A stretch of 64,000 bases of DNA from Chryseobacterium gleum (GCA_945903645.1 CAMDOM010000003.1:1-64000), one strand, 5' to 3'. Counted from the stretch's first letter, positions 20,013 through 47,302 are shown. The notes: generated by a model from the letters alone, not told the origin. Made by a program: numbers and translations.

Positions 20013-20314
20013 TTCTGGAAAAGTCTGAATTGCATGAAATTTTCGTCAAAGGTATTCGGGACCAATCGCCATATTATCGTTTGCGATATTCTTCTTTAAG
20101 TCAAATAAAGTTGGGTTTAGAAAAGATTTATGATTTTAAAAAGTCAAAATAGCACTGTTATTTCAATCGATAAAATGCTTTGAATCCATCGAGCCAACCA
20201 TAAGTGAATCACGCAGTCTTAACGTGAAAATTACATTTCGTTAGTGCGCTGCGAAGTACTATTGCGCATCAATTCGGTTGGTCAACATTTGAGTTTAACG
20301 GTAAGATATTTTTG
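20013..20314. other. intergenic region, 300 bp, AT-rich
   Basis: It lies between two divergent genes. Apart from the promoter element at 20047-20054 for the leftward gene I see no ORF, RNA gene or strong hairpin. The middle is AT-rich with several TTTAAAA-like tracts. Confidence 0.5.
20047..20054 (-). promoter_or_regulatory. -7 promoter element TACCTTTG for the haem lipoprotein gene
   Basis: TACCTTTG on the minus strand fits TAnnTTTG and lies 34 bp upstream of the ATG at 20012. Confidence 0.5.
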
Positions 20315-29495: not shown

Positions 29496-29570
29496 ACTTT
29501 TTCACGTATGCCGTTCGTTCGAAAATTGAATCCATTTTCGAGCATAGTTTCGGTTCACTTCGAAAATTTG

Positions 29571-31208
29571 ATGAAAGCACTTATGACTAGACAACTACTT
29601 CTTACCTCAGTGCTTTTATTCCTGTTTTTTGGTTGTGTAATTGGTCAGGTTGATAAGGAGGCCGAATTCAAAAGAATTTATCCAATTGCCACAAATCAAC
29701 TTGCACTAGGCCAGACCCAACAGGCTCTAAAAAACTTATTGTTGCTCAGCGACTTGAGTCCTCAAAATGCAAATGTCAATTACAAAATTGGTATTGCATA
29801 TCTCGGCATAAGCGGTGAAAAACAAAAAGCGGTTCCTTTCTTGGAAAAGGCAGTGGCATCCACAAGTGCATCTTACAAGGACAACTTTAAAGAAACAAAT
29901 GCTCCGTTAGATGCAAACTTTTATTTAGGCCGAGCATATCATCGTAATCTGGAGTTTGATAAGGCTATTAGCGCCTATAAGCAGTACCTAAGCGAAGGCA
30001 AAGTGTATGATGAAGATGAAAAGGCATCTGTGAAGATGTTGATTCAAAATTGCCAAAACGCCAAATTGATTGTGGAATCACCTTTAAGTGCTGAATCAGA
30101 GCCAATTGGAGAGAACATCAATTCTGTATTTGACGAATACGCTGCTGTGGTTGACGCAGCTGAGAAAACTCTGATTTTCACATCAAGAAGGTCAAATAGT
30201 GTTGGAGGATTAAAAGATTTGGATGATAAATTCTTCGAAGATATCTACATCTCAAAGAAAGATAGCGTTACTGGAGTTTGGGGAGTGCCTGTAAGTATTG
30301 GAAATCAGATAAACACAGACGGTCATGAGGCATCAATAAGCCTATCTGCCGATGGAAATGAGCTGTATATCTATCGCGATGATGTTGGTGATGGCAATAT
30401 CTACGTGTGTAAGCGGTCCAACAACGTTTGGGGTGAACCCATCCAACTTAATGCAAACATCAATTCTCCCTTTCGTGAGTCGCATGTGGGTGCCTCATCT
30501 GATGGCCAAATACTTTATTTCACGAGCAATAGAAGTGGTTATGGTGAAATGGATATCTTTTTTAGCAAACGATTGCCTTCAGGCGATTGGGGAATTGCTG
30601 AAAATCTTGGAAGCAGGGTAAATACTAAATATGATGAAGAAGCACCTTTCATTCATCCTGATGGTAAAACGCTTTTCTTTAGCTCAAAAGGCCACAATTC
30701 AATGGGTGGTTTCGATATATTCTTTTGCATTTTGCAAGATGACGGAAAATGGTCATCTCCATTTAATCTCGGTTTTCCTATGAATACACCTGATGATGAT
30801 TACTTTTTTGTAATGTCTACAGATGGAAAACGGGCATACTATTCATCAACGTCTTTTGATGGCAAAGGAGGTAAAGATATCTATATGGTGCGTCTCGACA
30901 CCGATCGCGAAGAACCAGTTACTGTGTATAAAGGTGTTCTAGTGGAGGATGAATATGGCAATTTTCCTGTGGACGTAACCATCATAGTTACTGATGTTTC
31001 TAATGGAGAAACCTATGGCGTTTATCGTCCTCGTCCAGATAATGGAAGATTTGTATTTATTCTTCAGCCAGGAAAAACATATGAAGTAGTCTACGAAGCT
31101 GGTGGATATGAATTGAAATCAGAAACCCTTATTGTACCGCAGGAAACTGCTTACAGGGAACTAAATCGAGCGATTCAAATGTCTTTTGAAAGACTAAATA
31201 CAGAGTAG
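29571..31208 (+). CDS. PorE-like exported protein: TPR, PD40 propeller, regulatory beta domain, no OmpA
   Basis: A 545-residue protein, first of five large exported proteins in a row. ATG 29571 gives a signal peptide (LLTSVLLFLFFGCVIGQ); the upstream 21 codons do not. Residues ~25-150 are TPR-like helices (VNYKIGIAYLGISGEKQKA; ANFYLGRAYHRNLEFDKA). Residues ~165-435 are a PD40/WD40-like propeller with repeated SxDGxxLYFxS strands and the diagnostic FFSSKGHNSMGGFDIFF. Residues ~445-530 are a carboxypeptidase-regulatory-like beta domain (PVDVTIIVTDVSNGETYGVY). It resembles T9SS protein PorE but stops before an OmpA domain, so it would not bind peptidoglycan by itself. The Cys in FFGCVIGQ might be a lipobox, but FGCVIGQ fits signal peptidase I better. 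Confidence 0.83.
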   Translation: MKALMTRQLLLTSVLLFLFFGCVIGQVDKEAEFKRIYPIATNQLALGQTQQALKNLLLLSDLSPQNANVNYKIGIAYLGISGEKQKAVPFLEKAVASTSASYKDNFKETNAPLDANFYLGRAYHRNLEFDKAISAYKQYLSEGKVYDEDEKASVKMLIQNCQNAKLIVESPLSAESEPIGENINSVFDEYAAVVDAAEKTLIFTSRRSNSVGGLKDLDDKFFEDIYISKKDSVTGVWGVPVSIGNQINTDGHEASISLSADGNELYIYRDDVGDGNIYVCKRSNNVWGEPIQLNANINSPFRESHVGASSDGQILYFTSNRSGYGEMDIFFSKRLPSGDWGIAENLGSRVNTKYDEEAPFIHPDGKTLFFSSKGHNSMGGFDIFFCILQDDGKWSSPFNLGFPMNTPDDDYFFVMSTDGKRAYYSSTSFDGKGGKDIYMVRLDTDREEPVTVYKGVLVEDEYGNFPVDVTIIVTDVSNGETYGVYRPRPDNGRFVFILQPGKTYEVVYEAGGYELKSETLIVPQETAYRELNRAIQMSFERLNTE

Positions 31209-31231
31209 GTTTAAATTATTAGTATTCATTG

Positions 31232-31249
31232 ACCTTTTGGAAGGTTTTA
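31232..31249 (+). terminator. possible weak terminator after the first PorE-like gene
   Basis: A 5-bp stem, ACCTT with AAGGT around a TTGG loop, is followed by TTTATTTT. It is short and weak, and lies 23 bp after the stop at 31208. Confidence 0.3.
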
Positions 31250-31252
31250 TTT

Positions 31253-31260
31253 TAACTTTG
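31253..31260 (+). promoter_or_regulatory. -7 promoter element TAACTTTG for the second PorE-like gene
   Basis: TAACTTTG matches TAnnTTTG, 66 bp before the ATG at 31327. The large genes may therefore have a transcription start separate from the first one. Confidence 0.5.
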
Positions 31261-31326
31261 GCCGTTTACAAAAAAAATGAATCTATCATTCAATGGAGTT
31301 TTAATCCTGAATGAGTTAAGAATAAG

Positions 31327-34300
31327 ATGAAGCGATTTTATTTTGGTACGCTTTTGTTGTTGGTGGGGTTTTCTTCTTTCGCTCAGCCATATGGCGATTC
31401 GAAATACAAGCAGAAATTAACAAAAGCAGATGCCCTTATTTTTAATGGTGCCTTTGCCGAAGCTTTACCGCTTTTAGAAGAATTGCACGCTACGGATACA
31501 TCCATTGCCAATGTGAACTTTCTTCTTGGTATTTGCCATCTCAATGGCACCAAAAACTATTTGCAGGCTATTCGTTTCTTCGAGAATGCCTCTCGGGATG
31601 TATCCAAAGATTATACTGAGGTCAATTGGAAAGAGCGAAAAGCTCCAGGTCTTACCTATCTGTATTTAGGTAGAGCTTATCATTACCTAAACCAATTCGA
31701 TAAGGCGGTATCGAACTACTATAATTACCGCTCTTTTATTGATATTGATGATTTAGAGACCTACAACAAGGTTCGTATGGTAATTAAACATGCGGAAAAC
31801 GCAATGGAACTAATCAAAGTTCCCGTAAATGTTGACATTACAAATCTTGGAGCAACCATAAATTCTGTCTACTCGGATTATTCGCCAATAATTTCGGCAG
31901 GTGGGGAAATATTAATCTTTACTTCGAGAAGACCAGGAGGTACTTCTGATGCAAAGGATAAGGACGGTTCTTATTTTGACGATATCTACGTAAGTAAGCG
32001 GTCAGCAAATGATACTTGGGGTAAACCAATGCGCATTGGCGGTGGTATTAATACGGTTGGACATGAAGCGGCCATTGGTATTTCTCCAGATGGACAAACC
32101 TTGTTTATCTATAAAGATGATAACGGTGATGGCAACATTTATCGAAGTGATTTGAAAGAGAGCGAATGGTCAGCTCCTGTCAAAATGGAAAGCAATATCA
32201 ATACTTCCTCATGGGAAACACATGTTGCTGTTTCGCATCAAGGAGATATGTTGGTGTTTACATCTAATCGTACAGGCGGCTATGGAGTTAGAGATTTGTG
32301 GTATTGCTTGCGATTGCCCGATGGAAGTTGGGGTCTTGCACAAAGTATGGGCAGTGTTGTAAATACACAGTTCGAAGAAGATTCTCCTTTCTTGGCCTTT
32401 GATGGCAAAACGCTCTTTTTTAGCTCTCAGGGTCATACCTCGATGGGAGGTTTTGATATTTTTCGTTCGGAGTTTGTGGAAGGAGCATGGACTGAACCAG
32501 AGAATTTAGGTTATCCTATCAATACAGCAGAAGATGAAGTCTTTTTCGTTTTAGCCGCAGATGGAGAAACGGCTTACTACAGTTCCAGAAAAGTTGGTGG
32601 TTTTGGCGATACAGATTTGTATACCATGCGATTGAATCCGAAACAGGCTGATGTCATGACGGTAGCCAAAGGCCAAATGTTGGTTCCCGCAATGAATTAT
32701 GTAAATCTCAAAGCAAGTATTGTTGTTCGAGATGCTGCTGGAAATGACGTAGGAAATTACCTGCCGAATCAATATTCAGGCTATTACATTCTCTTGCTTA
32801 ATCCTGGAGAAAAATACACTGTCGAGTACAGAGTGCAAGGATATGAGTCGATTGTTAAACAAATATCAGTTGACGAGAATACATCCTATAACAAGATTTT
32901 GCGTCCTGTAGATTTGGATACAGTTGTGTTTGGCGAAGATTTGCTGGCACTCCAAGATAAGAAACGAGTAACAGTGGAGGAGACACAATTAGCCGAAGCT
33001 AAAACGAAAGAACTGCTTCGTTTGCAAGAAGAATCACTTTTGAATGCTGAGTTGGATGTTAAGAAGTCAGAGGAAGAAATGGCAAGTTTGGAGAAACAGT
33101 TTGCGATTGACGAAGAAAACAGGAAGCAAATTGAAAGGGTAAACGAGTTAGCTCTATCTGAGGCTGAAGAAGCGGAAAGACAATTAAAGGAGGAACAAGC
33201 CAAACGCAATACGGCCGAGTCTCAGTTGATTCAGACTCAAGAAGAAATAGCTCAGAAAAAATCTAGAGAGCGTGTTAAAAAGGAGCTAGAAGCTAAGGCT
33301 CGAGCAAAAGCCATTGAAACAGCTAGATTAGTTGCTGAACAACAAGCATTGGAAGCGACCCAGGATCCAACTGCTCAATCAGAAGAGACTAAAACTGAGC
33401 AAGTGGTGGAGGAAGTTATTTCTGCTACAACCGTAGGGGAGATTCAAAAGGATGAGCAACTAGCTGAAGCCTTAGCGAAAGCTGAAAAGGACGCGCAGCT
33501 AGCAATGGAAGAATCTGCGCGGCAAGAAGCCGAGAAGATTCGTATTCAGAATGAATTGTCTCAAGCCCAAGTTGTTGAAGAGGCAAGGATAGCAGCAGAT
33601 GAATTACTGAAAATTAAACAGGAAGAGGATGCTCTAGCCAGTGAAGCCATTGAAGTCCCAATGGTGGAAACAGCCGAAGAAAATGCTCAAAAAGAATTAA
33701 CTCCATCTGAGGAGGAAGCGCGTAAGAGAGAGGTTTTTAAGAGGAGATTAGAAGATTTAAAGAAGAAAAAACTCGAACAAGCCGCACCACCAGTAGTTGA
33801 AAATGCTTTTCAAACAGTAGCTGATACGGTTCAGAAAGCGGTATCTGCTGATGAAACTGTTGAGAAAGAGTCTGACTCAATCGTACCAACTGAGGTTCAA
33901 CCGACTATTGAACAAGAGATTGTTTCCAACGAAATAAACGAGCAAGTTGAAGCAACTGCAAGTTTGGTGGATGATTCATTAAAATATCTCATCGAAAGAA
34001 AACAAGCAGAGGAATCGGAATTACTTGCTAAACAGCAGGAGGAGATTCTTGCACAGCAGCGGTTAATTGAAGAGGAAAACCAAAGAAAAATTAAGGAAGC
34101 TGAAATCAGCGAACAATTATTGATTGCTAAACGAGAGGAAGCAGAGTTACGTGCTCAACAAGAGAAAGAATTAGAGGTTAAGTCGGTAGAAGGAGATGAT
34201 GAAAGTGTTTCTTTAGAGGAGAATGCAAAAACACTTGAGAAGTTAAATGAAGATCGCTTGAGTAACGAACTGCGGCTGCAAAAACTTAAGGATGAATTGG

Positions 34301-35988
34301 CTAAATTGAAGGAGGAGGCATTAGCTAAAGAAAGGGAAATTGAAGCAAGACAGCGGGAAGAAGATGCGTTGTTGGCTAGGCAGCAAGAGGAACTTCGCGT
34401 GCAACAGCAACTGGAGCAGGAAGCTACTGAACGTAGATTGAAAGAGGAAGCTTTAGCGAAAGAAATTGAGGAGAAGAAACGGTTGGAAGCTGAATTGTTT
34501 TTAAAACAACAGGAGGAAATTATTGCTCAACAACGACTAGAAGAGGAATTGGCTGCTAGAAAGTTGAAAGAAGAAGAGTTGGCTAAAGAAATTGAAACCA
34601 AGCAACGTGAGGAGGCAGAATTAGTTGCAATACAACAGGAAGCTGAGCGGGTAACCCAGCTTAAAATGGCGGAAGAAGCGAAGGCACGAGAACTGGAAGA
34701 AAAGCAACGTGAGGAAGCAGCATTGTTGGTAAAACAGAGAGAAGAGGAAATTCTTGCTCAGCAACGATTGGAGGAGGAATTGGCTACTAGAAAACTGAAA
34801 GAAGAAGAGCTCGCCAGAGAAATTGAAGATAAGCAACGTGAAGAGGCAAAATCATTAGCAATACAACAGGAAGCTGAACGGTTAGCCCAGCTTAAAATGG
34901 CGGAAGAAGCGAAAGCAAGGGAACTGGAAGAAAAGCAGCGAGAGGAAGCAGCATTGTTGGTAAAGCAGAGAGAAGAAGAAATTGCTGTGCAACGAGCGCT
35001 ACAAGAGCAAGAACAAGCTCAAACTTTAGAGTTGAAGCAACGGAATGCTGCTGAATTGTTGAAGACGCAACAGGAGGAAGAAATAGCGAAGCAGCTTGCT
35101 GTAAAACAGGAAATAGAAAATAAATTAGCTGAAGAAGCGTCAGTAAAAAAACTTGAAGAACAAAAACAATCGGAAGCTCAAGTAATGTTAGAGCAAAGTG
35201 AGGGGAAATCTAACAATAGTCTAGAGGCAAAACAAGATATTCAAGGTAAAGTTGATTGGGAAGCAATTGCTAAGGAGCGCCAATTAATCATCTTGGCGTA
35301 TGAAAAAGATAAGCGCGAACGAGCAAAATTAGAGATTGAGCAACAGGCTCAGAAAAATGTGAATGATGCAAGTTCAAAAAACAATCCCGTTCAACAAAAT
35401 CTGGATGTTAGTACATTTATTGCACAGAATAAAAAACTTGTACAAGAAAATGTGGAGATGAAATCTCAGCTCGATGAGATGAATGCTAAACTAGACATAA
35501 TATTGGTGGAGGTAAGAAAGAGAAATGAGATGGCCCCACCAGTTAATCCTTATGATGAAGAAGCAGTATCTGCTCTTAACAGTGGAAAAAAATTAATTCT
35601 ACAAAATATTTTATTCGATTACAATAAAGCAAGACTTCGGGGAAGTTCTGAACGGGAATTGGACAAATTAGCCAATTTCCTTTTGAATAACGAGAGTATT
35701 AAACTCACAATTTCTGGTCATACTGATGCCAACGGTGAACCAGACTATAATTTACGACTTTCAAGGGCACGGGCCGAATCGGTTCAGAACTATCTTATTT
35801 CACGGGGTATTTCGAAAAATAGACTGAAAGCAATTGGTTTTGGACAGTCTATGCCAATCGCTAAAAATGTTGATGGAAACGGAGATGACAATCCAATAGG
35901 TCGTCAATTAAATAGACGTATTGAGATTAATGTTACGGAAGGTGATGCTGGTTTAATTCAGACGAAAGAGGTCGAAATTCCAGATTGA
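31327..35988 (+). CDS. giant PorE-like protein: TPR, PD40 propeller, beta domain, ~850-residue coiled coil, OmpA
   Basis: A 1,553-residue exported protein with signal peptide (FGTLLLLVGFSSFAQ). Domains in order: TPR helices ~25-150; PD40 propeller ~165-440 with LFFSSQGHTSMGGFDIF; regulatory beta domain ~445-525; a very long Glu/Lys/Gln/Ala/Leu coiled coil ~540-1,385 containing a 77-residue tandem duplication; an OmpA peptidoglycan-binding domain from ~1,425 (ILFDYNKARLRGSS, SGHTDANGEPDYNLRLS, GRQLNRRIEI). The outer domains match PorE, but PorE has no such insertion. A continuous helix of that length would be well over 100 nm, far more than the periplasm. The OmpA end implies an anchor on peptidoglycan. 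Bundle, folded-back or surface-spanning arrangements remain open. Confidence 0.85.
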   Translation: MKRFYFGTLLLLVGFSSFAQPYGDSKYKQKLTKADALIFNGAFAEALPLLEELHATDTSIANVNFLLGICHLNGTKNYLQAIRFFENASRDVSKDYTEVNWKERKAPGLTYLYLGRAYHYLNQFDKAVSNYYNYRSFIDIDDLETYNKVRMVIKHAENAMELIKVPVNVDITNLGATINSVYSDYSPIISAGGEILIFTSRRPGGTSDAKDKDGSYFDDIYVSKRSANDTWGKPMRIGGGINTVGHEAAIGISPDGQTLFIYKDDNGDGNIYRSDLKESEWSAPVKMESNINTSSWETHVAVSHQGDMLVFTSNRTGGYGVRDLWYCLRLPDGSWGLAQSMGSVVNTQFEEDSPFLAFDGKTLFFSSQGHTSMGGFDIFRSEFVEGAWTEPENLGYPINTAEDEVFFVLAADGETAYYSSRKVGGFGDTDLYTMRLNPKQADVMTVAKGQMLVPAMNYVNLKASIVVRDAAGNDVGNYLPNQYSGYYILLLNPGEKYTVEYRVQGYESIVKQISVDENTSYNKILRPVDLDTVVFGEDLLALQDKKRVTVEETQLAEAKTKELLRLQEESLLNAELDVKKSEEEMASLEKQFAIDEENRKQIERVNELALSEAEEAERQLKEEQAKRNTAESQLIQTQEEIAQKKSRERVKKELEAKARAKAIETARLVAEQQALEATQDPTAQSEETKTEQVVEEVISATTVGEIQKDEQLAEALAKAEKDAQLAMEESARQEAEKIRIQNELSQAQVVEEARIAADELLKIKQEEDALASEAIEVPMVETAEENAQKELTPSEEEARKREVFKRRLEDLKKKKLEQAAPPVVENAFQTVADTVQKAVSADETVEKESDSIVPTEVQPTIEQEIVSNEINEQVEATASLVDDSLKYLIERKQAEESELLAKQQEEILAQQRLIEEENQRKIKEAEISEQLLIAKREEAELRAQQEKELEVKSVEGDDESVSLEENAKTLEKLNEDRLSNELRLQKLKDELAKLKEEALAKEREIEARQREEDALLARQQEELRVQQQLEQEATERRLKEEALAKEIEEKKRLEAELFLKQQEEIIAQQRLEEELAARKLKEEELAKEIETKQREEAELVAIQQEAERVTQLKMAEEAKARELEEKQREEAALLVKQREEEILAQQRLEEELATRKLKEEELAREIEDKQREEAKSLAIQQEAERLAQLKMAEEAKARELEEKQREEAALLVKQREEEIAVQRALQEQEQAQTLELKQRNAAELLKTQQEEEIAKQLAVKQEIENKLAEEASVKKLEEQKQSEAQVMLEQSEGKSNNSLEAKQDIQGKVDWEAIAKERQLIILAYEKDKRERAKLEIEQQAQKNVNDASSKNNPVQQNLDVSTFIAQNKKLVQENVEMKSQLDEMNAKLDIILVEVRKRNEMAPPVNPYDEEAVSALNSGKKLILQNILFDYNKARLRGSSERELDKLANFLLNNESIKLTISGHTDANGEPDYNLRLSRARAESVQNYLISRGISKNRLKAIGFGQSMPIAKNVDGNGDDNPIGRQLNRRIEINVTEGDAGLIQTKEVEIPD
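34513..34974 (+). repeat. 231-bp in-frame tandem duplication in the coiled coil
   Basis: Copy A at 34513-34743 and copy B at 34744-34974 are highly similar, with mostly silent differences. Each encodes 77 residues, eleven heptads, so the coiled-coil register is kept. Shorter echoes of the unit lie upstream from about 34030. Confidence 0.85.
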
Positions 35989-36137
35989 GTAAGTCGTTCA
36001 TAGTATTATTCGGATGAATAGTCTAGATTCATAATTCATTTCATTGTTGTAGTTTTAAGCCCAAACAGTATTAATTGGCATCAAGTGTATTCTTTACGTG
36101 TTTTACGTAGTGTTGTAGTGAGAAATAGCGCAAAAGA

Positions 36138-39100
36138 ATGAGTTTTAAGAGTGTTTGGTTTGTATTTCTTTCAGCGTGTATATGCACTCCTTTGAGTGAG
36201 GTTATAGCGCAGTCGAGAGACATTCGACAAGTGACAGAAGAAGAGCTTAACAAGGAAATTGTTGAAACTGAAGAGCAACGTGAGCAAAGGAGAGCAAAGG
36301 TTACGCTTAAAGGAGCTATGGAGCACTACTGGAATGGGAATTTCCGCGCAAGTCTGGAAGATTTTTTAGTGCTATTGGCCAAATCTCCTGCTGATATCGA
36401 TTTGAATTTTTACATCGGAGCTAGCTATTTGGAGACCAATATTGACAAACGTCTAGCTATATCCTATTTGGAATATGTAGTACAGCAACCCAAGTTTCCG
36501 AAGGAAGCAATATATCAATTGGGCAGGGCTTACATGTTTGCTAACAGATTTGATGAGGCTATCATTACATTTAATAAATACAAAGACATACAAAGAGGAA
36601 AGGAGGATAACATTATCACCGGTTCGCGTATGATTGAAATGTGCTTTAATGCAAAGCAGCTAGTAAAGTATCCACGAAATGTGAAGTTTGAAAATCTTGG
36701 AAGTACTGTAAATTCTGCATATCCAGACTACAATCCTTTCATTCCAGAAGATGAATCGTTTATAGTTTTTACAACTAAGCGTCCAGATTGTTTAGGCTTG
36801 CAACTCGACTATGACGGATATAAAACACCAGATATATTTCTTGCCAGAACGTCAAAAGGAGAGTTTCGTGAAGCGCGCAATGTTGGTTCTTCCGTGAATA
36901 CTGAATGGTATGAAGAAGTTGTAGGCGTTTCAGCAGATGGGGCTGAGTTGATGGTCTACATTGATAACTTTGACGGATACGATGATATTTTCGTGTCTCC
37001 TAGAAAAGGAAGGTTCTTTGATGAGTATTATGACATTGGTAAAAATGTAAACTCTGACGATATAGAGACTACTGCCAGTATGTCTACTGACGGTAGTTTA
37101 CTATTCTTTTCTCGTGAGTTGGAAGAACAAACAAAAACTGGAACTGATTTATTCTATGCAAGAAAATTACCCAATGGGACATGGGGTACTCCAATTAAGC
37201 TTCCTGATGTAATTAATACTCAATATAACGAGAGTTTCCCGCACTTATCATCTGATGGTAAGACTTTTTATTTTTCATCAGAAGGACATTCGAGTATGGG
37301 TGGCTTCGATATGTTTATGTCTGAATTCGATGAAGTAACCGGACTTTTTGGCATTCCCAAAAACGTTGGGTATCCTATCAATACAGTGGATGACGATTTC
37401 AATATCTCAATGAGCACTACTGGGAGGTATGGCTATACTTCGCAATTTAGACCCGATGAAGGATTTGGTGAACGTGATATTTATCGGGTTACGTTTCTCG
37501 ATGTGGACCCAGTTTATACGGTAGTGAGAGGTTCTATAACCAACATTAGGGATAGTTTAGAGCGAAATCCTTTGTATAAAGTCGGAAAGTTTGAAATTAC
37601 GATAACGGATATGAACACGGATGCGGATATCGGAACTTATAGACCAAATAAGGTTTCTAGCAACTACGTTCAAGTATTGGAACCTGGCGAGTATTGCGTT
37701 TATGTTCAAGGAGAGCTTTTCTACGATACATCTGCTGTTGTAACTGTATTGGGTAAAGATGCTCAGGTGAGTGACTTAATAAAAGACTACACACTTCGTC
37801 CTGATCCTGATGCCATTAGTCGTGCAGGGTTGCAATCGTCAGATGGTGGCGCGATTTATGCCATGTCTGGTAGTGATGATAAGACCGCACGACTGTGGGA
37901 GTTGCCGTCAGGAAAACAGGTTCTTAAATTGGAAGATACTGATAAAGTTAGTGCTGTAGCTTTTTCTAATACGGGAAAGTATGCTGTTACAGGAACAAAC
38001 AATGGCCAAGTGACGCTTTGGACCATCCCTGATGGGGGAAAGTATAAAACAATGAAAGGACACAGGTCGGTCATTACCGCTGCCGAGTTTACCCCAAATG
38101 GGAAATATGTTTTAACCTCAAGTGAAGATTCTACACTTCGTTTGTGGAACGTGGAAACTGGCGCAGTTGAGAAAACTTATTTAGGTCATGAAGCAAAGGT
38201 TAATGGTCTATCTATTTCATCTGACGGAAAACAATTTGTTTCTGTGTCAGAGGATGGCAACGCTTTGATGTGGGAATTAATGACCGAAGAATTGGTAGGT
38301 GTGTACGATGGTCATAAAGGTGCTGTGAATGCGGTCGATTATTCACCAATAGGAAACTTTGTTGTGACAGCAGGCAATGATGGTACTATAGCGAAGTGGG
38401 ATGGAGCAAGTTCCGCAAAGCAATTAGAATTTTCTTTGCACAGTTCGCCTGTAAATGCTGTCAAAGTTTCTCCTGATGGCACAACTATTGTCTCTGGTAG
38501 TAAGAATGGATTTCTATACTCCTGGAATGCATTGGATGCTAAGGTTAAAAATGCCATGATAGGGTTAAGTTCTGCAAATACTGGAATTTTTATTTCGAAG
38601 AATAGCGAGTATGTAATTGCTAGTGATTTGACCAATACACCAAAGGTTTGGCAGCTTGGTTCTGGACATGACGTAGTCAGTTTAGTTGGTCATTTCAAAG
38701 GAATAAACGATGTTTGTTTTACTCCACATATAAAATTCCCAGAGAAAGTATCATCACCTTCAATGCGTTCTGAACCTGTTACAAGCACTGAGCTTGAGGG
38801 AGAAATTATTGCACTTGAAAAAGAGCTAGCAGAGATTGAAGTTCAAAGTGGTATGGGATATGATCCAACATTGCTTGATGCCAACGTAGACGGAACAAAA
38901 ATTTTAAAAGTAGGACAGAAAATAATCTTGAAAAGAATATACTTTGATTTCAATAAGTTTAATATCAGGGATGAATCGATTGTAGAATTATATAATCTTT
39001 TGGTATTCATTACGTCAAATCCGTCTGTTGTTGTGCAGATTTCAGGCCATACCGATTCTAGAGGAGCCGATGATTATAATTTAAAGTTGTCTCTAAATAG

Positions 39101-39308
39101 GGCAAAAAGTGTAGTTGCATGGTTAAAGGACCGTGATATACCATCAAAACGGATGACGGTAAAAGGGTTTGGTGAAACACAGCACATAGCGCCAAATGAC
39201 AATCCTGATGGAAAAGATAATCCAGACGGTCGTCAAATAAATAGACGTATCGAGATTACCATTGTAAGTGTAGGCGGTGATAAGTTAATAACCACGGTAG
39301 GAAAGTAG
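36138..39308 (+). CDS. double-propeller PorE-like protein: TPR, PD40, beta domain, WD40 propeller, OmpA
   Basis: A 1,056-residue exported protein with signal peptide (FVFLSACICTPLSEVIAQ). Order of domains: TPR helices ~50-170; PD40 propeller ~180-445 with FYFSSEGHSSMGGFDMF; regulatory beta domain ~460-545; then seven classical WD40-like blades at ~560-865 (ARLWELPSGKQ, VTLWTIPDGG, LRLWNVETGA, ALMWELMTEE, AKWDGASS, YSWNALDA, KVWQLGSG), with GH and SxDG turns as in eukaryotic WD40 proteins. A short acidic helix follows, and an OmpA domain at ~930-1,050 (SGHTDSRGADDYNLKLS, GRQINRRIEI). Two propellers plus a peptidoglycan anchor make a likely periplasmic interaction platform. The next gene starts 2 bp after the stop, so the two are surely co-transcribed. 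Confidence 0.85.
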   Translation: MSFKSVWFVFLSACICTPLSEVIAQSRDIRQVTEEELNKEIVETEEQREQRRAKVTLKGAMEHYWNGNFRASLEDFLVLLAKSPADIDLNFYIGASYLETNIDKRLAISYLEYVVQQPKFPKEAIYQLGRAYMFANRFDEAIITFNKYKDIQRGKEDNIITGSRMIEMCFNAKQLVKYPRNVKFENLGSTVNSAYPDYNPFIPEDESFIVFTTKRPDCLGLQLDYDGYKTPDIFLARTSKGEFREARNVGSSVNTEWYEEVVGVSADGAELMVYIDNFDGYDDIFVSPRKGRFFDEYYDIGKNVNSDDIETTASMSTDGSLLFFSRELEEQTKTGTDLFYARKLPNGTWGTPIKLPDVINTQYNESFPHLSSDGKTFYFSSEGHSSMGGFDMFMSEFDEVTGLFGIPKNVGYPINTVDDDFNISMSTTGRYGYTSQFRPDEGFGERDIYRVTFLDVDPVYTVVRGSITNIRDSLERNPLYKVGKFEITITDMNTDADIGTYRPNKVSSNYVQVLEPGEYCVYVQGELFYDTSAVVTVLGKDAQVSDLIKDYTLRPDPDAISRAGLQSSDGGAIYAMSGSDDKTARLWELPSGKQVLKLEDTDKVSAVAFSNTGKYAVTGTNNGQVTLWTIPDGGKYKTMKGHRSVITAAEFTPNGKYVLTSSEDSTLRLWNVETGAVEKTYLGHEAKVNGLSISSDGKQFVSVSEDGNALMWELMTEELVGVYDGHKGAVNAVDYSPIGNFVVTAGNDGTIAKWDGASSAKQLEFSLHSSPVNAVKVSPDGTTIVSGSKNGFLYSWNALDAKVKNAMIGLSSANTGIFISKNSEYVIASDLTNTPKVWQLGSGHDVVSLVGHFKGINDVCFTPHIKFPEKVSSPSMRSEPVTSTELEGEIIALEKELAEIEVQSGMGYDPTLLDANVDGTKILKVGQKIILKRIYFDFNKFNIRDESIVELYNLLVFITSNPSVVVQISGHTDSRGADDYNLKLSLNRAKSVVAWLKDRDIPSKRMTVKGFGETQHIAPNDNPDGKDNPDGRQINRRIEITIVSVGGDKLITTVGK

Positions 39309-39310
39309 TC

Positions 39311-42300
39311 ATGAGTAGTTCACGAATCTCCTTTATTTTCGGATGGACTATTGCAGTATTCTTCCTGTTTAATATTTGTGTTTCACTCGTTGCTGTAGGT
39401 CAGTCAAAGACCGCTTCCCTAAAGGATACTTTAAAATCGAATATTGTAGGACCGCTTGAATTTAAAGGAACAGTAGAAGAACTTGAGAAAAGCATAAAGG
39501 GAGCAATAGTTACTGTGTATGAAGATGCAGATGGTTCAGGAACTACTTTAACAGAGCTGAAGAAAATTGTCACTCCCGGAAATGGAGAATTTGCGATAAA
39601 GTTAGAAATCAACAAGCTTTACGTGATTAGGTTGGAAAAGACAGGGTATACAATGAAAGGGATTGACATTGATACCGATGTTCGAATGGCCAGACCCGAT
39701 AATACCAAAGTCCCTTTGTTTGAATTCAAGGTTGATATGGTTAAAGATACAGATGGATTAGCCTTTAGGAAATCTGTAGCTAAAGTATTCTATCAGATAA
39801 AACGAAACGTCTTTGAGTATGAGTTGGATTATACCAAAGAGGAAATGCAAGAGGAAGAGCAATTGCTTCGCGAACAAGAGGAAAAACGTAGACTTGCTGA
39901 ATTGGCAGCTCAAAAGAAGTTTGAAATTGACGAGGCAGCCAAAATACTTCGAGACCAGGAAAATGCAACTATTGAGGATAAAATTAAAGCTGCTATCACC
40001 ATAGGTAATGAAGATAAAAAGAGGACTATTGATGCTTTAGTTGAGATTTTTCCTCTTAATGACACATTAAGAGTTAAGAAAGCAGATGTCATTTTTACGG
40101 AATTACAGAAAGAACGGAAAAAAGATGGTGCTACATCTGCTACAATAAACTATAATTCTCTCTTTTCTGCAGCTAATGCTTTGGAAGCCAGTGTTGTGGA
40201 AAGTATCTCAAAAGAGCAAGTTAAAAAGATTGAGGAATTGCGTGCGGTAAAATTGGAAGCTGAAAAAAAGAGTAATGCCACAATGACTGTTCAGCAGCAG
40301 GCTTTGGAATTGGAAATGCGGGAGAAAATCGCTGCTGCAAACGTAAAGGACGAAGAGCGTAAAAAGATAGAGGAAAAAGCTAAAAACGACAAAGTTTATT
40401 ACGCTATTTTCGATTCGAATGGAGATCGCAAATTGGCCATTGCTGGATTACTTAAAACTTTTCCTAAAGGTGATTCCTATGCTGAAAAGAAAGCTGAAGC
40501 TATTTATTTGGAATATGAGAAAACAAGACTAGGAGGTACAGCGCTATCAAAGATGGACTTTTCAAAATTATTTGCCGCAGCTGATGTTGCAGAACAAGCG
40601 GCAATTAAAGAGGAGATTGGAAAAGCAGATACTAAAGATAGAATAAAAACGGAAGCCTTCCTAAAGAAAGAGGAAGAATTAAAATCTGTAGAGCAAAAGC
40701 AAAAAGCAGACATCATTCTTTTGGGGTTGAAGACCGAACCTAAAGACGAAGCGTCACAACTTGCTGTTTTTGTTGAATCCTTTCCGAAAAGTGATCCTTT
40801 TCGGCAAGAAAAGGCTCAGGCAATGTTTGAGGAATACACAGTGCAACAACAGTCCATAAAGAAAACTGGAAGTTCAACTACGGCCTTAGATTTTAGTTCA
40901 ATGTTTATGGCAGCTGAAGTAGCCGAGAAGGAAGCCGCACAGGTACAGAAAATGCAGCAGGCGAAGGAAAAAAATGCTGAACAAGATAAAATTGAGAAAA
41001 TAAGAGAAGAGGTTAGACAGGAAAAAATTCTTTTAGGTGAACAAGCCGCTAAGAACGCTAAGCAAGTTCATTTGGCGAAAATGGGCGAGGCTAAAACCCA
41101 AAAGGAGAAAGCAATAGGGCAAGCGTTAGAGTTGGGTGTTGGTGATAGGGCGAAAACCGTACAGGCCATTATTAGCACTTTTCCGAAAGGAACCGAGTTG
41201 CCACAATTGAAAGCTGAGGCCATTTATGATGCATATCTTGAGGAAGGTAAGCGTATTAAAAGTGCTGGTGTTGCGGGAGCTAAGCTAGACTTTGCCGTTC
41301 TTTTTCAAGCTGCGGAATTGGCAGAGTTAAAAGGATTAGAGCGTCAGTATGAAGAAAAACAGGCAGTTCAAGAAAAACAGAATATTGCTTACGAAGAGAA
41401 ACGGATAGATAAGAGTAAGGAGGTTTTACAAGAGAAAGCAAAAGAAGCTACTAAGGAACTCGCGGTAGCTGAACAGAAATATACCCAGACGGCTCAGCAA
41501 GTAGAGCAAAACAGACAAGCTAGAATTAAGGAAGATCAGCTTAGAGCTCAAGAAACTCAAAAGCAACTTGCGATGGAGCAAGCAAAGCGTGATGCCCTAG
41601 ATAGAGAGAGCCAAAGTACTGTTTTGGCGAAGTTAGAGGCAGAACGTAAATCTAGATTAATAGCTGAGGAGGCAAATAAGGAGCGATTGGCTTCAGCTAA
41701 ATTGGAGGAGCAACGAAAGTTGGAAGCAGCTGCTAAGGCTGAGGCTGATAAACTCCTTGCAATTGCAGAGAAGGAGCGTGCCTTGGCCAACGCTGCTAAA
41801 AAACAAACAGAAGAAGAGCAGCTCAAAGAGCAAGCGAAACGTGATGCAGCAGTATTGCTAGCAAAAGCTGAAGCGGACAAGTTGCGAGTTGCAAAAATGG
41901 AGGCTGGTGCTTTAGCATTAGAGACTAAAGCAATTGAAGATGCTAAGGCTGAAAAAATCCGAATTGCAACTAATATGGCAGAAGCCAAACCAAAGGCTGA
42001 GCGAACTAAGGAAGACGAGCGACTGCTAGCTCAGAGAGATGCAAAACTTAATACCGAAATCAAAGCTCTGGCGATTGCCGAAGCAAGTAAGGATCAGGAG
42101 GAGCAACGATTAAGATTTGAGGCACAGAAGGCTGCTAAGGCTGTGGATTTAGCCGCAGCAAATGAAGAAGTTGACCGTATTGAAAAGGAAAAACGGATTC
42201 AGGCTGAGGCCGATAAAATTCGCGCAGCAGAAGATCTTGCTAAAGCCAAGATTGAGGCGGAACGTCTCAAAGAAGAACAACGATTGGCTGCTGAAGCAGA

Positions 42301-43900
42301 CAAGATTCGCATAACTAAAGAGTTAGCTATGTCTAAAGCGGAATCAGATAGGGCGAAAGAGGAACAACGTTTGAAAGCTGAGGCCGATAAGTTGAAAGCG
42401 GCAGCGGATATAGCAAAAGCAAAGGCGGAAGCTGACAGAATTAAAGAAGAACAACGCCTAGAAGCTGAAATCGAAAAGGCATTAGCTGATGCCGAGAATG
42501 CCGAAGCTAAAGCCAAAGCTGACAAGGCAAGGGAAGAGCAACGCCTTAAAGTAGAAGCGGATAAAGTTCTTGCGGATGCTGCTTTGGCCGATGCTAAAGC
42601 CAAAGCTGATAAGGCAAAAGAAGAGCAACGTCTTAAAGTAGAAGCGGATAAAGTTCTTGCGGATGCTGCTTTGGTCGATGCTAAAGCCAAAGCGGATAAA
42701 GCAAAGGAGGAACAACGTTTGCAAGCTGAACGCGACAAAGCGGATGAAGCAGCCAAGATTGCAGCAGATAAAGCAGCTGCAGAAGCTGCTCGCTTAAAAG
42801 AGGTAGCAGCGGCTGAAGAGGCCAAACGAAAAGAGCAAGAAGCATTGCGCCTAGCAGCGGCAGACAAGGTAAAAAAGGAGCAAGAAATTGTTCGTCTATT
42901 GGGCTTGGCAAAACAAGAGACTGTCAAAAACAATCCAGCTTCTGCCATGTCAGCATACCAACAAGTACTCGTGTTAGATGGAGCAAACAAAGAAGCCCAA
43001 GCAGGAGTAAGTGCATCTCAGCTGGCATTGGATGCTCTAGCTTTAGCCGATGCTGAAAAGAAGACCTTGGACAAAAACTACGCAGATTTGGTGGCTAAAG
43101 GAGAAAAGGAACTTGCTACCGGTGCGTTGGCCGAAGCTAAGAAGTCCTTTAGTTCTGCTAGCGTATTGAAACCAACGGACAAAGTGGTCAAAGATTGGCT
43201 TGCAGAAGTGAAACGCAGAGAGGATGAAATTGTTGCTGCTGCCGAAGAAAAGCGTTTGTTGGAAAGACGGTATATACTATTAATGCAAGAAGGAGCGCAA
43301 GCTATGGGAGCTAAAAATTTGGCTGTTGCCAAACTTAGATACACCGAAGCGGCACAGTTGAAACCAGAGGAGGCAGAACCATCAAAGAAATTGCAGCTCA
43401 TAGCAGAATCAGAGCAACAGGTTGCCTTTGCAGCGGAGGATAAACGTAAGCGTGAAGAAGAAGCCAAACTCAAATTTGCAGAGCAGCAGTTGGCTGAAGC
43501 TAACCGCCAAAAATTGTCAGATGCCGAGCGCAAGAAAGCAATTGAAGAGGCCGATGAATTAAAGAAGGAAATTCAACAATCGGCTACATCTGCTGAGACC
43601 GAGCGTGCAAAGCAATTCGATTTGATTAAAGAAAATGTAGAAAAGCTGAACCTCAATGCTGAAGATCAGCGCAAAGCTTTCTTATCTGAACTTTCTAAAC
43701 TTTATCCGCAAGGAGTTACTGAAGAATCTGTTGCTGGAAAGGGTTACAAATTGCTTCGCAACGTAATCAATCAAGGTGGTGTTGTTACGGTTTATGAAAA
43801 ACGTACATGGGACTGGGGGGGTGTGTTTTACTTCAAGAATGGTGATATAGACATTAACGAATCACTGTACAAATTGGAGTTAAAAAATGTAGGTAAGTAG
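39311..43900 (+). CDS. 1,529-residue Lys/Glu/Ala-rich helical exported protein with novel ~75-aa repeats
   Basis: I know no named family for this protein. The N-terminus is a signal or membrane segment (GWTIAVFFLFNICVSLVAVGQ), followed by a regulatory-type beta domain (~50-140). From ~180 on it is almost entirely helical and highly charged. Four copies of a ~75-residue unit stand at about 223-298, 359-436, 465-543 and 597-678. Each has a FPxx(D/T) turn, a KAxxI(Y/F) helix and a closing LDFSxLFxAAExAE-like helix. A shorter A-K-A-E heptad zone (~740-1,190) includes an 87-bp DNA repeat, followed by TPR-like helices (~1,200-1,370). The C-terminus (~1,450-1,529) has a related YPQG turn and a compact aromatic module ending WDWGGVFYFKNGD. 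There is no propeller or OmpA. Its place between PorE-like genes implies a partner role. Confidence 0.75.
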   Translation: MSSSRISFIFGWTIAVFFLFNICVSLVAVGQSKTASLKDTLKSNIVGPLEFKGTVEELEKSIKGAIVTVYEDADGSGTTLTELKKIVTPGNGEFAIKLEINKLYVIRLEKTGYTMKGIDIDTDVRMARPDNTKVPLFEFKVDMVKDTDGLAFRKSVAKVFYQIKRNVFEYELDYTKEEMQEEEQLLREQEEKRRLAELAAQKKFEIDEAAKILRDQENATIEDKIKAAITIGNEDKKRTIDALVEIFPLNDTLRVKKADVIFTELQKERKKDGATSATINYNSLFSAANALEASVVESISKEQVKKIEELRAVKLEAEKKSNATMTVQQQALELEMREKIAAANVKDEERKKIEEKAKNDKVYYAIFDSNGDRKLAIAGLLKTFPKGDSYAEKKAEAIYLEYEKTRLGGTALSKMDFSKLFAAADVAEQAAIKEEIGKADTKDRIKTEAFLKKEEELKSVEQKQKADIILLGLKTEPKDEASQLAVFVESFPKSDPFRQEKAQAMFEEYTVQQQSIKKTGSSTTALDFSSMFMAAEVAEKEAAQVQKMQQAKEKNAEQDKIEKIREEVRQEKILLGEQAAKNAKQVHLAKMGEAKTQKEKAIGQALELGVGDRAKTVQAIISTFPKGTELPQLKAEAIYDAYLEEGKRIKSAGVAGAKLDFAVLFQAAELAELKGLERQYEEKQAVQEKQNIAYEEKRIDKSKEVLQEKAKEATKELAVAEQKYTQTAQQVEQNRQARIKEDQLRAQETQKQLAMEQAKRDALDRESQSTVLAKLEAERKSRLIAEEANKERLASAKLEEQRKLEAAAKAEADKLLAIAEKERALANAAKKQTEEEQLKEQAKRDAAVLLAKAEADKLRVAKMEAGALALETKAIEDAKAEKIRIATNMAEAKPKAERTKEDERLLAQRDAKLNTEIKALAIAEASKDQEEQRLRFEAQKAAKAVDLAAANEEVDRIEKEKRIQAEADKIRAAEDLAKAKIEAERLKEEQRLAAEADKIRITKELAMSKAESDRAKEEQRLKAEADKLKAAADIAKAKAEADRIKEEQRLEAEIEKALADAENAEAKAKADKAREEQRLKVEADKVLADAALADAKAKADKAKEEQRLKVEADKVLADAALVDAKAKADKAKEEQRLQAERDKADEAAKIAADKAAAEAARLKEVAAAEEAKRKEQEALRLAAADKVKKEQEIVRLLGLAKQETVKNNPASAMSAYQQVLVLDGANKEAQAGVSASQLALDALALADAEKKTLDKNYADLVAKGEKELATGALAEAKKSFSSASVLKPTDKVVKDWLAEVKRREDEIVAAAEEKRLLERRYILLMQEGAQAMGAKNLAVAKLRYTEAAQLKPEEAEPSKKLQLIAESEQQVAFAAEDKRKREEEAKLKFAEQQLAEANRQKLSDAERKKAIEEADELKKEIQQSATSAETERAKQFDLIKENVEKLNLNAEDQRKAFLSELSKLYPQGVTEESVAGKGYKLLRNVINQGGVVTVYEKRTWDWGGVFYFKNGDIDINESLYKLELKNVGK
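42545..42718 (+). repeat. 87-bp tandem repeat, two near-identical copies, in the helical protein
   Basis: The copies at 42545-42631 and 42632-42718 encode the same 29 residues (start LKVEADKVLADAAL) with few base changes. A diverged third copy precedes them. The near identity indicates a recent duplication or slippage. Confidence 0.85.
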
Positions 43901-43934
43901 TTGTGCTAGACCAGCGTGACAATTCAATACACAT

Positions 43935-45866
43935 ATGAGAGTGCATAATAAAATGTATAAGTTGTACTTTCTACTTTTTATAGGATTCGCATGTGTATTT
44001 AATGCTTTGGCTCAGGAGCCCAAGGACGATGGAATTAAAGGTGCAACTCCAATGGTTTTGGCTAAAAACTACTTTGATATTGGTGACTACAAAAATGCAT
44101 TGCCTACCTATCAAAAACTTCTTGCTGAAAAACCAGAAGATGAATTTCTAAACTATAGAGTAGGCTTGTGTCATCTGCGTCAAAACATAAATAAAAGCCT
44201 ATCAATTCCTTATTTGCGTAAGGTGGTTAGTATGAAAAATTTTGACAATGAAGCTTTATACGAAGCTGGTTTGGCATACATGTTTAACGAAAATATAGAT
44301 AGTGCCCTCTTGTTTTTTAACAAGTATAAACTCATTGCGGTGGACCCAATCAAAATGGTTGAGGTTACTAGGCAAATTGAATTTTGTGGAAATGCCAAGA
44401 AATTCATGAAGGAGCCATTGAATGTCACCTTTGAAAACATTGGATCTGAAGTGAATTCAGAAGGGCCGGATTTTAATCCTATGGTGCCTTTAGACCAGTC
44501 GTTTATGGTGTATACCACCAAGCGCGAAAAAGGTGTGATGGGCAATAACTTGGATTTTGATGGCTATAAGCCGCCAGATATTTTTATGGCTTCCGTGAAG
44601 AATGGAGAATTTACCAAGGGAAAAAGTGCTAGTGCATTAGTTAATTCTGAATGGGTGGAGGAGCTGGCGGGCATGTCGGCATATGGAGAACACATGTTTC
44701 TTATGGTAGATAACGTGGAAGCATCTGATGATGTTTGGGGCACTGTCTATTCTGGTAGATCTTGGCCAAAGCCTCTTCCATTAGGGCCAAGTCAGAACAC
44801 AGAAGATATTGAGCAAGCTGCATCGTGCAGTCCAGATGGACAAACACTTTATTTCTCGAGGTTTAGCACCATAACTCCAGGCTTTGGAGAGTTGGACATT
44901 TACATGGCGAAACGATTGCCAACTGGAGATTGGGGTATTCCTACCAACCTTGGCCCAACGGTTAATACGCAATATAACGAGAGCTATCCAATGATTTCGC
45001 ACGATGGCAAGACCCTTTATTTTTGTTCTCAAGGGCATAGAAGCATTGGCGGATACGACATTTTCAAAAGTGTTTGGGACGATAAAATGCAACGTTGGGA
45101 ACGTCCCGAAACCCTTGGTTATCCTATAAATACCACCTCCGATAATTTTGTGTTTAGTCCCACTGATGACCCGCGTGTTGGCTACACATCGCAATTACGT
45201 GCAGGTGGATTTGGCGATTTGGATATCTATCGCGTTATTTTTAATGCCTTTCCAGAGCGATTGAGCACAGTGGTTTTGGATATTGATGTGGTGACAGGTC
45301 CTAAGAAGGACTACCTGAAAGTGCATGAATGGAAAACTGCCGATGGTCAATTGAAATGGTTTCCTGCAAGTATTGAATACCAACCTACCGATAGACCTGA
45401 ATACACATTTGTAACCACCAAGGACATTGAAGTAAAAGATGGCGAAGCTTACGAGTTTACAATTATTGGTTCAGTTGCAGGTGGAGAAGTAGGGAGATAT
45501 GATGAGAAAACATTTCCGAAGGGAGGTGATTTTACATTGGTAGACGTCCGTTCAAAGAAGATTAAAGTACCGTTGAAAGGAGTGAAACCAACAGTTACAT
45601 CGCTTAAGGGCAAGAGGGAAGTGAAGGTGGAAGTTAGTGTGAAAGACACCCAAGGCAAAGAGGTAGGTAAGTATAAACCCAACTATAATAAGGGTCGCAT
45701 TGTGGCTGTGCTTGTTCCGGGTCAATTGTATGAATTCACAATTCAATCAAAGGGATTTCAGGAGGTGAAGGAAAAGGTATACGTGATGGATTTGGGTGAT
45801 TATAAAGAGATAATTACTCGTAAGATTACACTGCTTGAGAATGGCCTTGAAATGCCTGTAAAGTAG
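43935..45866 (+). CDS. PorE-like exported protein: TPR, PD40 propeller, C-terminal beta domains, no OmpA
   Basis: A 643-residue protein, last of the five. The signal peptide (KLYFLLFIGFACVFNALAQ) is cleaved before Glu-Pro. The start is ATG 43935; ATG 43953 is a close alternative. TPR helices cover ~35-160 (FLNYRVGLCHLRQNINKS). A PD40 propeller spans ~170-435 with LYFCSQGHRSIGGYDIF. A beta-rich C-terminal section of ~200 residues ends in a regulatory-type domain (VKVEVSVKDTQGKEVGKYKPNYNKG). The N-terminal 430 residues are closest in layout to the double-propeller protein: both have PDYNPF/PDFNPM and FDGYKxPDIF phrases, so they look like sister paralogues. It starts 34 bp after the helical protein, so it probably belongs to the same operon. 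Confidence 0.83.
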   Translation: MRVHNKMYKLYFLLFIGFACVFNALAQEPKDDGIKGATPMVLAKNYFDIGDYKNALPTYQKLLAEKPEDEFLNYRVGLCHLRQNINKSLSIPYLRKVVSMKNFDNEALYEAGLAYMFNENIDSALLFFNKYKLIAVDPIKMVEVTRQIEFCGNAKKFMKEPLNVTFENIGSEVNSEGPDFNPMVPLDQSFMVYTTKREKGVMGNNLDFDGYKPPDIFMASVKNGEFTKGKSASALVNSEWVEELAGMSAYGEHMFLMVDNVEASDDVWGTVYSGRSWPKPLPLGPSQNTEDIEQAASCSPDGQTLYFSRFSTITPGFGELDIYMAKRLPTGDWGIPTNLGPTVNTQYNESYPMISHDGKTLYFCSQGHRSIGGYDIFKSVWDDKMQRWERPETLGYPINTTSDNFVFSPTDDPRVGYTSQLRAGGFGDLDIYRVIFNAFPERLSTVVLDIDVVTGPKKDYLKVHEWKTADGQLKWFPASIEYQPTDRPEYTFVTTKDIEVKDGEAYEFTIIGSVAGGEVGRYDEKTFPKGGDFTLVDVRSKKIKVPLKGVKPTVTSLKGKREVKVEVSVKDTQGKEVGKYKPNYNKGRIVAVLVPGQLYEFTIQSKGFQEVKEKVYVMDLGDYKEIITRKITLLENGLEMPVK

Positions 45867-45920: not shown

Positions 45921-46694
45921 ATGATAAACCTGACTAGACCTCTGGCGTTCTTCGATTTGGAAACCACTGGAGTGAATGTGGCTTACGATAGAATAGTGGA
46001 GATTTCCATAATCAAAATGAACCCATCTGGAGAGGAGGAGGTCTACACCCGATTGGTGAATCCTGGAATGCCTATACCTGCCGATGCAGCTGCCGTGCAT
46101 GGCATAACGGATGAGCGTGTGGCCAACGAGCCGCAATTTAAGTCCTTAGCTCCTGAAATTATTGCTTTTATTGGCGATAGCGATTTGTCGGGCTATAATT
46201 GCTTGAAGTTTGACGTGCCTCTATTGATGGAAGAATTGCTGCGTAATGGTTTCGATATGGACATGCGCACTAGAAAAGTGGTGGACGTGCAAAACATTTT
46301 TCATAAAATGGAACAGCGTACCTTATCTGCTGCCTACAAGTTTTATTGCGATAGCGATTTGCAAAATGCCCACAGTGCTGAAGCCGACACCCGCGCCACT
46401 AAGGAGATACTGGTGGCCCAATTGGAGCGTTATGCCGAATTGGAACCCAACGTGGCCTTCCTTCACGATTTCGGGAAACGTGGCACTGCCGTAGATTTTG
46501 CCGGACATATTATTGAAAACGAACATGGAATTCCCGTATTCAATTTTGGGAAATTCAAAGGGAAAACTGTGGTAGAAGTGTTGAAACAACAGCCTTCCTA
46601 TTATGGATGGATGATGGAAGCTCAGTTTCCGAGCTATACCAAAAAGGTGCTTACAGAACTTCGCATAGACGGATTTAACAAAGGGTTGCTATGA
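45921..46694 (+). CDS. DEDDh 3'-5' exonuclease (DnaQ-like) with ExoX-like C-terminus
   Basis: A 257-residue nuclease. Motif I FDLETTG (Asp12, Glu14) and the later motif with HSAEADTRA give the catalytic DEDDh acidic residues and His; motif II is in GYNCLKFDVPLL. The last ~70 residues (FNFGKFKGKTVVEVLKQQPSYYGWMM) match a small C-terminal module found in exodeoxyribonuclease X-type proteins. It may be a proofreading or repair exonuclease. The specific partner polymerase is not evident. It starts with ATG in a 54-bp gap after the PorE-like locus and overlaps the next gene by 4 bp (ATGA). Confidence 0.9.
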   Translation: MINLTRPLAFFDLETTGVNVAYDRIVEISIIKMNPSGEEEVYTRLVNPGMPIPADAAAVHGITDERVANEPQFKSLAPEIIAFIGDSDLSGYNCLKFDVPLLMEELLRNGFDMDMRTRKVVDVQNIFHKMEQRTLSAAYKFYCDSDLQNAHSAEADTRATKEILVAQLERYAELEPNVAFLHDFGKRGTAVDFAGHIIENEHGIPVFNFGKFKGKTVVEVLKQQPSYYGWMMEAQFPSYTKKVLTELRIDGFNKGLL

Positions 46695-47302
46695 AAATTG
46701 TTTGCATTGGGCGCAACTACGCAGAGCATGCCAAGGAGTTGAATAATCCAATTCCTGCCGAGCCGTTGTTTTTTATAAAACCCGATTCGGCAGTGCTACG
46801 CAATAACGAACCATTTTATCTCCCCGATTTTTCAAAGGATGTGCACTATGAAGCTGAGATTTATGTGCGCATTCACAAAAAGGGTAAAAACGTTCAAGCC
46901 AAGTTTTCTCCAAGTTATTACAAGGAAATAGGCATTGCCATAGATATGACCGCTCGCGATATACAGCAACATTGCAAAGAAAAAGGTCTGCCCTGGGAAA
47001 AAGCCAAAGGGTTTGATGGATCGGCACCCATGAGCGAAATGCTGCCGCTTTCCGATTTTGAAAACATACAAAACATTCACTTCGAGTTGCACAAAAATGG
47101 TGCAGTGGTGCAACGTGGGTGGACAGGTGACATGCTTTTTCCTGTGAACCGAATTATTGAAGAAGCTACTAAGTATTTCATGCTAAAAATTGGCGATATC
47201 ATTTTCACCGGAACTCCAGCAGGAGTGGGTAAGCTCGAAATTGGAGACCGTTTGGAAGCCTTCATCGAAGGAAAAAAAATGATGGATTTCTACATCAAGT
47301 AA
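46691..47302 (+). CDS. fumarylacetoacetate hydrolase family protein
   Basis: A 203-residue enzyme of the short FAH type (YcgM/FAHD1-like), acting as acylpyruvate hydrolase or oxaloacetate decarboxylase in characterised relatives. The start KIVCIGRNYAEHAKEL, the metal-binding Glu pair in HYEAEIYVRI, the Asp in IDMTARDIQ, the FDGSAPMSE block and the TGTPAGVG loop are all present. The ATG overlaps the exonuclease stop. The substrate cannot be told from sequence, and the pairing with a nuclease gives no metabolic hint. Confidence 0.92.
   Translation: MKIVCIGRNYAEHAKELNNPIPAEPLFFIKPDSAVLRNNEPFYLPDFSKDVHYEAEIYVRIHKKGKNVQAKFSPSYYKEIGIAIDMTARDIQQHCKEKGLPWEKAKGFDGSAPMSEMLPLSDFENIQNIHFELHKNGAVVQRGWTGDMLFPVNRIIEEATKYFMLKIGDIIFTGTPAGVGKLEIGDRLEAFIEGKKMMDFYIK

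Follow-up and report, generated by a model that had tools for sequence, protein, structure and literature searches.

A conserved locus of PorE-like exported proteins with unusual additions in Chryseobacterium gleum

Do five large genes that lie in a row in Chryseobacterium gleum, all predicted to encode exported proteins, contribute to one envelope structure? We addressed this question in a window of 64,000 nucleotides, that is, the whole stretch of DNA that was analysed. An ORF check of the window placed five reading frames (G1–G5) on the plus strand, together spanning 29508-45866. The frame of G1 opens at 29508 (29508-31208, 566 codons); the internal ATG at 29571 is its likelier start, as it better matches the position at which the signal peptides of the orthologs begin. 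The block is flanked upstream by a gene for a 2-oxoacid dehydrogenase E2 acyltransferase (28155-29495, plus strand; Pfam 2-oxoacid_dh 3e-76), which recurs in many loci of the class. Two conserved neighbours follow downstream on the same strand: a DnaQ-like 3'-5' exonuclease (45921-46694) and a fumarylacetoacetate (FAA) hydrolase-family gene (46691-47302; Pfam 2e-47). The intergenic gaps measure 118 (G1-G2), 149 (G2-G3), 2 (G3-G4) and 34 nt (G4-G5), and owing to the first two of these a single transcript is only putative. Sequence scans revealed promoter- and terminator-like sites at the locus at no more than chance level.

Four of the proteins, G1, G2, G3 and G5, have a TPR region, a PD40 propeller and a CRD in common. 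Pfam recognised PD40 in G1 (1e-22), G2 (1e-20) and G5 (4e-14); for G3 it was absent among the matches listed (best 25 of 56). The NCBIfam models of PorE and CHU_0125 matched all four across the TPR-PD40-CRD part (E 1e-39 to 1e-74). Each of the four also carries the shared motif (FSSKGHNSMGGFD, FSSQGHTSMGGFD, FSSEGHSSMGGFD and FCSQGHRSIGGYD). Thus, domain searches and motif agree with the initial annotation, which had described four proteins with a TPR, PD40 and beta-domain core and one shared phrase. It had also called them consecutive, whereas G4 intervenes between G3 and G5. The motif is not peculiar to the locus: a collection scan with two patterns, one of them a close variant of the motif, found at least 594 stretches, at least 572 encoding relatives.

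What is attached to the core differs from protein to protein. In G1 (29571-31208), the core (29685-30926) is followed by a CRD (30942-31139) and there is no OmpA domain. In G2 (1553 aa, 31327-35988), the core (31423-32667) and a CRD-like domain are followed by a charged helical rod of about 835 residues (33007-35511) and an OmpA domain (35611-35880; Pfam 1e-20). G3 (1056 aa, 36138-39308) has the core at 36315-37526, then a CRD-like domain, a WD40 propeller (37854-38777; Pfam 1e-44) between the CRD and OmpA, and the OmpA domain itself (38940-39218; Pfam 1e-17). These Pfam matches bear out the earlier assignment of OmpA to two proteins and WD40 to one. G5 (643 aa, 43935-45866) also lacks OmpA, but the expectation that nothing is attached to its core (44052-45275) did not hold, as about 180 further residues, a beta region and a CRD, extend past the propeller (45276-45815). 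Sequence searches against solved structures gave no match for G1, only generic TPRs for G5 and nothing convincing for the C-terminus of G4.

Judged by eye, all five proteins start with a signal peptide, in line with the export proposed before. The N-termini of G1–G5 and their orthologs, read by eye rather than with a dedicated predictor, are of the FAQ/VAQ type and signal-peptidase I-like, and the same reading showed no conserved lipobox in them. On this reading, no lipoprotein is apparent among the five. An idea of a disulfide track (PMC12635249) was rejected: the cysteines of the core are not common to all four proteins, and the sole cysteine of G4 lies in its signal peptide.

Both OmpA domains keep the residues expected of a peptidoglycan-binding module. 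The Asp, Asn and Arg positions that bind DAP in PorE (PMC7192894) are occupied by these residues in 99%, 99% and 100% of 78 aligned relatives, G2 and G3 included, and the DAP-binding Asp and Arg of the PorE domain are present in both proteins.

How close, then, is the locus to characterised proteins of this kind? Against the PorE model (NF052230), G1, G2, G3 and G5 score 135-228 bits, below the cut-off of 600. G2 and G3 follow the TPR-propeller-CRD-OmpA order of PorE from Porphyromonas gingivalis, with intact peptidoglycan-binding residues, but carry a rod or a WD40 propeller inserted ahead of OmpA. Unlike PorE, none of the four appears to be a lipoprotein, two of them (G1 and G5) have no OmpA domain, and no PorP gene lies beside the locus. 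The premise that PorE is known as a single protein does not hold in general: Tannerella forsythia is reported to have 14 homologs and F. johnsoniae over 20 (PMC7192894), and the relatives studied here contain up to 33 matching places per genome. The finding holds and is conserved, but its kind is already known: a PorE-like set with unusual additions. PorE-like expansions had been described before.

Within NCBIfam, all four proteins match best to the model of CHU_0125 from Cytophaga hutchinsonii (NF053607; 178-252 bits), a protein whose deletion makes cells sensitive to harmful compounds and raises vesicle numbers sixfold (PMC5891637). The locus might thus encode integrity proteins of that type, each a separate Pal-like tether that holds the outer membrane to peptidoglycan with no shared complex. 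CHU_0125 indeed shares TPR, PD40 and OmpA with the locus proteins; however, it is a single protein of 656 residues with the annotation of a Pal lipoprotein (PMC5891637), in contrast to the multi-gene locus. The scores fall far under the cut-off of 620, there is no lipid anchor for the outer membrane, G1 and G5 are devoid of OmpA, and tethers that act independently would have no need of a fixed gene order. Taken together, we regard separate tethers as quite unlikely.

That order proved to be conserved. The entire block, E2-G1-G2-G3-G4-G5-exonuclease-FAA hydrolase, is contiguous in two loci of the same genus (L069 and L070), and other loci of the genus are partial, with contigs ending inside the block (L071/L072, L074-L079, L080/L081). 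In family f4, the five genes likewise lie between E2 and exonuclease; L073 and L276 have all five and L275 a truncated set, and the G3 of this family has no WD40 propeller. Loci of families f46 (L257) and f42 (L258) retain the G3-G4-G5 part, with an OmpA-bearing gene upstream that the end of the contig interrupts; G5 is not followed by the exonuclease in L258. Complete or in part, the five-gene order is thus kept across the genus and at least three other families. In a tree built from 80 rows of the TPR-PD40 core, G1, G2, G3 and G5 each fell into a starred clade together with the f4 ortholog, and the clades of G3 and G5 were sisters. The set is thus old and ordered, and predates the split of these families.

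A more variable form of the cluster, in which an E2 acyltransferase gene is followed by 1 to 5 PorE-like genes, the exonuclease and the FAA hydrolase, recurs in many records of Bacteroidia, among them L082, L085, L086, L100, L122, L125, L128, L148 and L162. A TPR-PD40 gene lies immediately upstream and on the same strand in 18 of the 30 closest exonuclease orthologs, in ten families; as the 30 were the top matches among 84 genomes with a hit, this share is probably overestimated. At 1e-40, the CRD and WD40 region of G3 was matched only in its own genus among 119 class genomes, and the G3 orthologs of L073, L257, L258, L275 and L276 have no WD40 insert. The tandem expansion proposed initially is right in part: the cluster itself is old and class-wide, and it is G4, together with the long rod and the WD40 propeller of G3, that is lineage-specific.

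Conserved order alone might be explained by ancestry, with ordinary paralogues in independent, partly redundant roles merely sharing a stable chromosomal stretch. PorE-like genes are plentiful in the relatives, and functionally unrelated genes (E2, exonuclease and FAA hydrolase) sit in the same conserved stretch, and both points speak for such an explanation. It is harder to reconcile with the distinct ortholog clades and the position-specific architectures retained across families, or with the presence of G4, which is not a paralogue of the others, at the same position in four families. We consider ordinary paralogy very unlikely.

Alternatively, the five proteins could do PorE's job in type IX secretion (T9SS) and anchor to the wall either T9SS rings or the type B surface proteins that PorP binds. 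Their core is that of PorE; PorE binds PorP, and PorP in turn binds a protein with a type B CTD (PMC9143113). A T9SS is encoded in the genome, with SprA, GldM and six places that resemble PorP; 6 kb upstream of the locus lies a gene for a 1033-aa protein (20312-23413) that carries a type B sorting domain of the T9SS (CHU_C 2e-14, Bac_Flav_CTERM). The presence of SprA in 38 of 39 relatives makes co-occurrence with the T9SS uninformative. The surroundings of the genes tell against such a role. In F. johnsoniae, 6 of 10 porP-like genes adjoin porE-like genes (PMC9143113), whereas PorP was found within two genes of 0 of 46 E2/exonuclease-type clusters, in a search with a profile built from five PorPs of the own genome, by which distant PorPs might be missed. 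None of the six own-genome PorP-like places adjoins a PorE-like gene, and neither PorP nor any T9SS machinery gene adjoins the five-gene locus. The several non-lipoprotein, OmpA-bearing PorE homologs per genome in F. johnsoniae (PMC9143113) resemble the proteins of the locus, but the locus differs from the F. johnsoniae pairs in that genes for PorP and type B CTD proteins are absent from it, in its fixed E2/exonuclease surroundings and in the added G4. With the low PorE scores and the missing lipoprotein signal also counting against it, a T9SS accessory role seems unlikely, and a link of the locus to secretion is unproven.

Three further genes were recorded in the same genome. A PorP-like gene (C3:63781-64776, minus strand) lies 18 kb downstream of the locus and starts inside the end of the window; another of the PorP-like places (on C28) has an internal stop. 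A 775-aa OmpA protein (C2:143671-145998; L181:5672-7999) has the outer membrane exchange protein TraB as its best NCBIfam match (205 bits, cut-off 700).

The initial annotation had read the G2 insert as an 850-residue coiled coil. In fact, the rod is 42% charged, and its longest stretch free of glycine and proline runs to 336 residues. Opposite charges at i/i+4 are enriched (z +9.9) and like charges depleted (z -8.4), but there is no heptad excess of hydrophobic residues (z -1.5), and a Fourier test was likewise devoid of heptad signal. Two proteins served as controls, E. coli TolA as a helical rod and MukB as a coiled coil. TolA gave an i+4 salt-bridge z of +5.5 and MukB one of about 0, while the heptad z of MukB was +1.9 and +3.5. 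The coiled-coil reading was therefore dropped, and the helix of about 835 residues looks like a charged, TolA-like rod. In six orthologous G2 inserts (440-651 residues), salt-bridge values were also high (z +4.4 to +11.1) and heptad signals weak (z +0.9 to +2.5). Chemistry that is kept while length varies fits the role of a spacer. A tandem repeat of 231 bp (77 residues) was found within the rod, at 34485-34983.

If fully helical, the 835 residues would span about 125 nm, at 0.15 nm per residue. This exceeds the width of the periplasm several times, which rules out a rod that spans it in a straight line. The rods of G2 and G4 share with the central helix of TolA a long helix with i/i+4 salt bridges; TolA, however, is anchored in the inner membrane and its helical region has about 240 residues, whereas the two rods are longer and belong to exported proteins.

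G4 (1529 aa, 39311-43900) had been described as propeller-free, helical and repeat-rich, and this picture stood and was extended. After the signal peptide comes a CRD-like beta-sandwich (39401-39739), then four helical repeats of about 80 residues each (39974-41356; pairwise alignment z 14-17), a charged rod (41711-42970), a TPR-like region and an uncharacterised C-terminal domain with the motif W-x-W-G-G-[VI]-[FY]-x-F-K (43631-43897). There was no match to the protein in Pfam or NCBIfam. AlphaFold models of two pieces of G4 reached a mean pLDDT of 72.7 and 76.2 and a poor pTM of 0.41 and 0.35; the N-terminal piece matches transthyretin/prealbumin/CRD-like beta-sandwiches over part of its length with modest confidence, and the C-terminal domain has a pLDDT below 50.

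The C-terminal domain, about 70 residues long and found in long exported proteins, was matched in 60 of 119 class genomes (E <= 1e-4), and we found no Pfam or NCBIfam model for its W-x-W-G-G-[VI]-[FY] motif. G4 can be assigned to a family of rod proteins that has no name as yet, with a CRD-like N-terminus, a long helical middle and this C-terminal W-x-W-G-G domain, a layout seen in G4, its orthologs and an own-genome paralogue. The paralogue (1497 aa, C3:113748-118241; L177:4749-9242) lies on the same contig outside the window, and a PorE-like TPR-PD40-OmpA gene (C3:118709-120700; L177:9710-11701) is convergent to it. Among 20 further loci inspected, members of the family stand next to PorE-like genes in the five-gene loci and in L273, and one gene away in L262, but in most they do not.

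An order kept across several families points to a single scaffold of several parts that lies between outer membrane and cell wall. We lean, by a small degree, towards G1–G5 being subunits of one peptidoglycan-anchored periplasmic scaffold beneath the outer membrane, and its best reading is a PorP-independent variant of the PorE kind. The complex, its location, partners and function are all parts of this reading that we infer. All five proteins would be exported in soluble form, and G2 and G3 would grip the cell wall through the DAP-binding residues of their OmpA domains. G1, G2, G3 and G5 might use their TPR and propeller heads to dock envelope partners and each other, with the CRD-like domains of the set as likely adaptor modules. 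The rods of G2 and G4 could then serve as long spacers or ties that run along the wall and not straight across. A bolder version, to which we assign a low probability, is a PorP-independent periplasmic machine of Bacteroidota with wall-anchored propeller heads, salt-bridge rods of up to ~100 nm along the peptidoglycan, cross-ties made of G4-type proteins and, as an added docking site, the WD40 head that is specific to the genus.

Several points count against a scaffold. Conserved order demonstrates linkage and not physical association, and the E2, exonuclease and FAA hydrolase genes, which have no plausible part in it, are equally conserved. G1, G4 and G5 have no recognised anchor, the rod exceeds the width of the periplasm, and the ortholog rods carry weak heptad signals. 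As for the dedicated envelope structure proposed at the outset, a gene order conserved nowhere had been named as evidence against it, and the order was found to be conserved; the part of the proposal that concerns secretion was not borne out to the same extent.

PorE-like proteins are much multiplied in the envelopes of Bacteroidota, and we found a tested role for PorE and CHU_0125 only. The locus marks a class-wide, PorP-less group at a fixed chromosomal site, so that roles beyond T9SS anchoring become testable in a culturable relative. It also reveals the unnamed long-rod family of G4, and rods longer than the periplasm is wide pose a structural puzzle. Finally, in Bacteroidales-type records (L157, L159, L163, L171 and L175), PorE-like genes lie near another recurring set of genes, whose products have ~175-190, 256, 334 and 205 aa.
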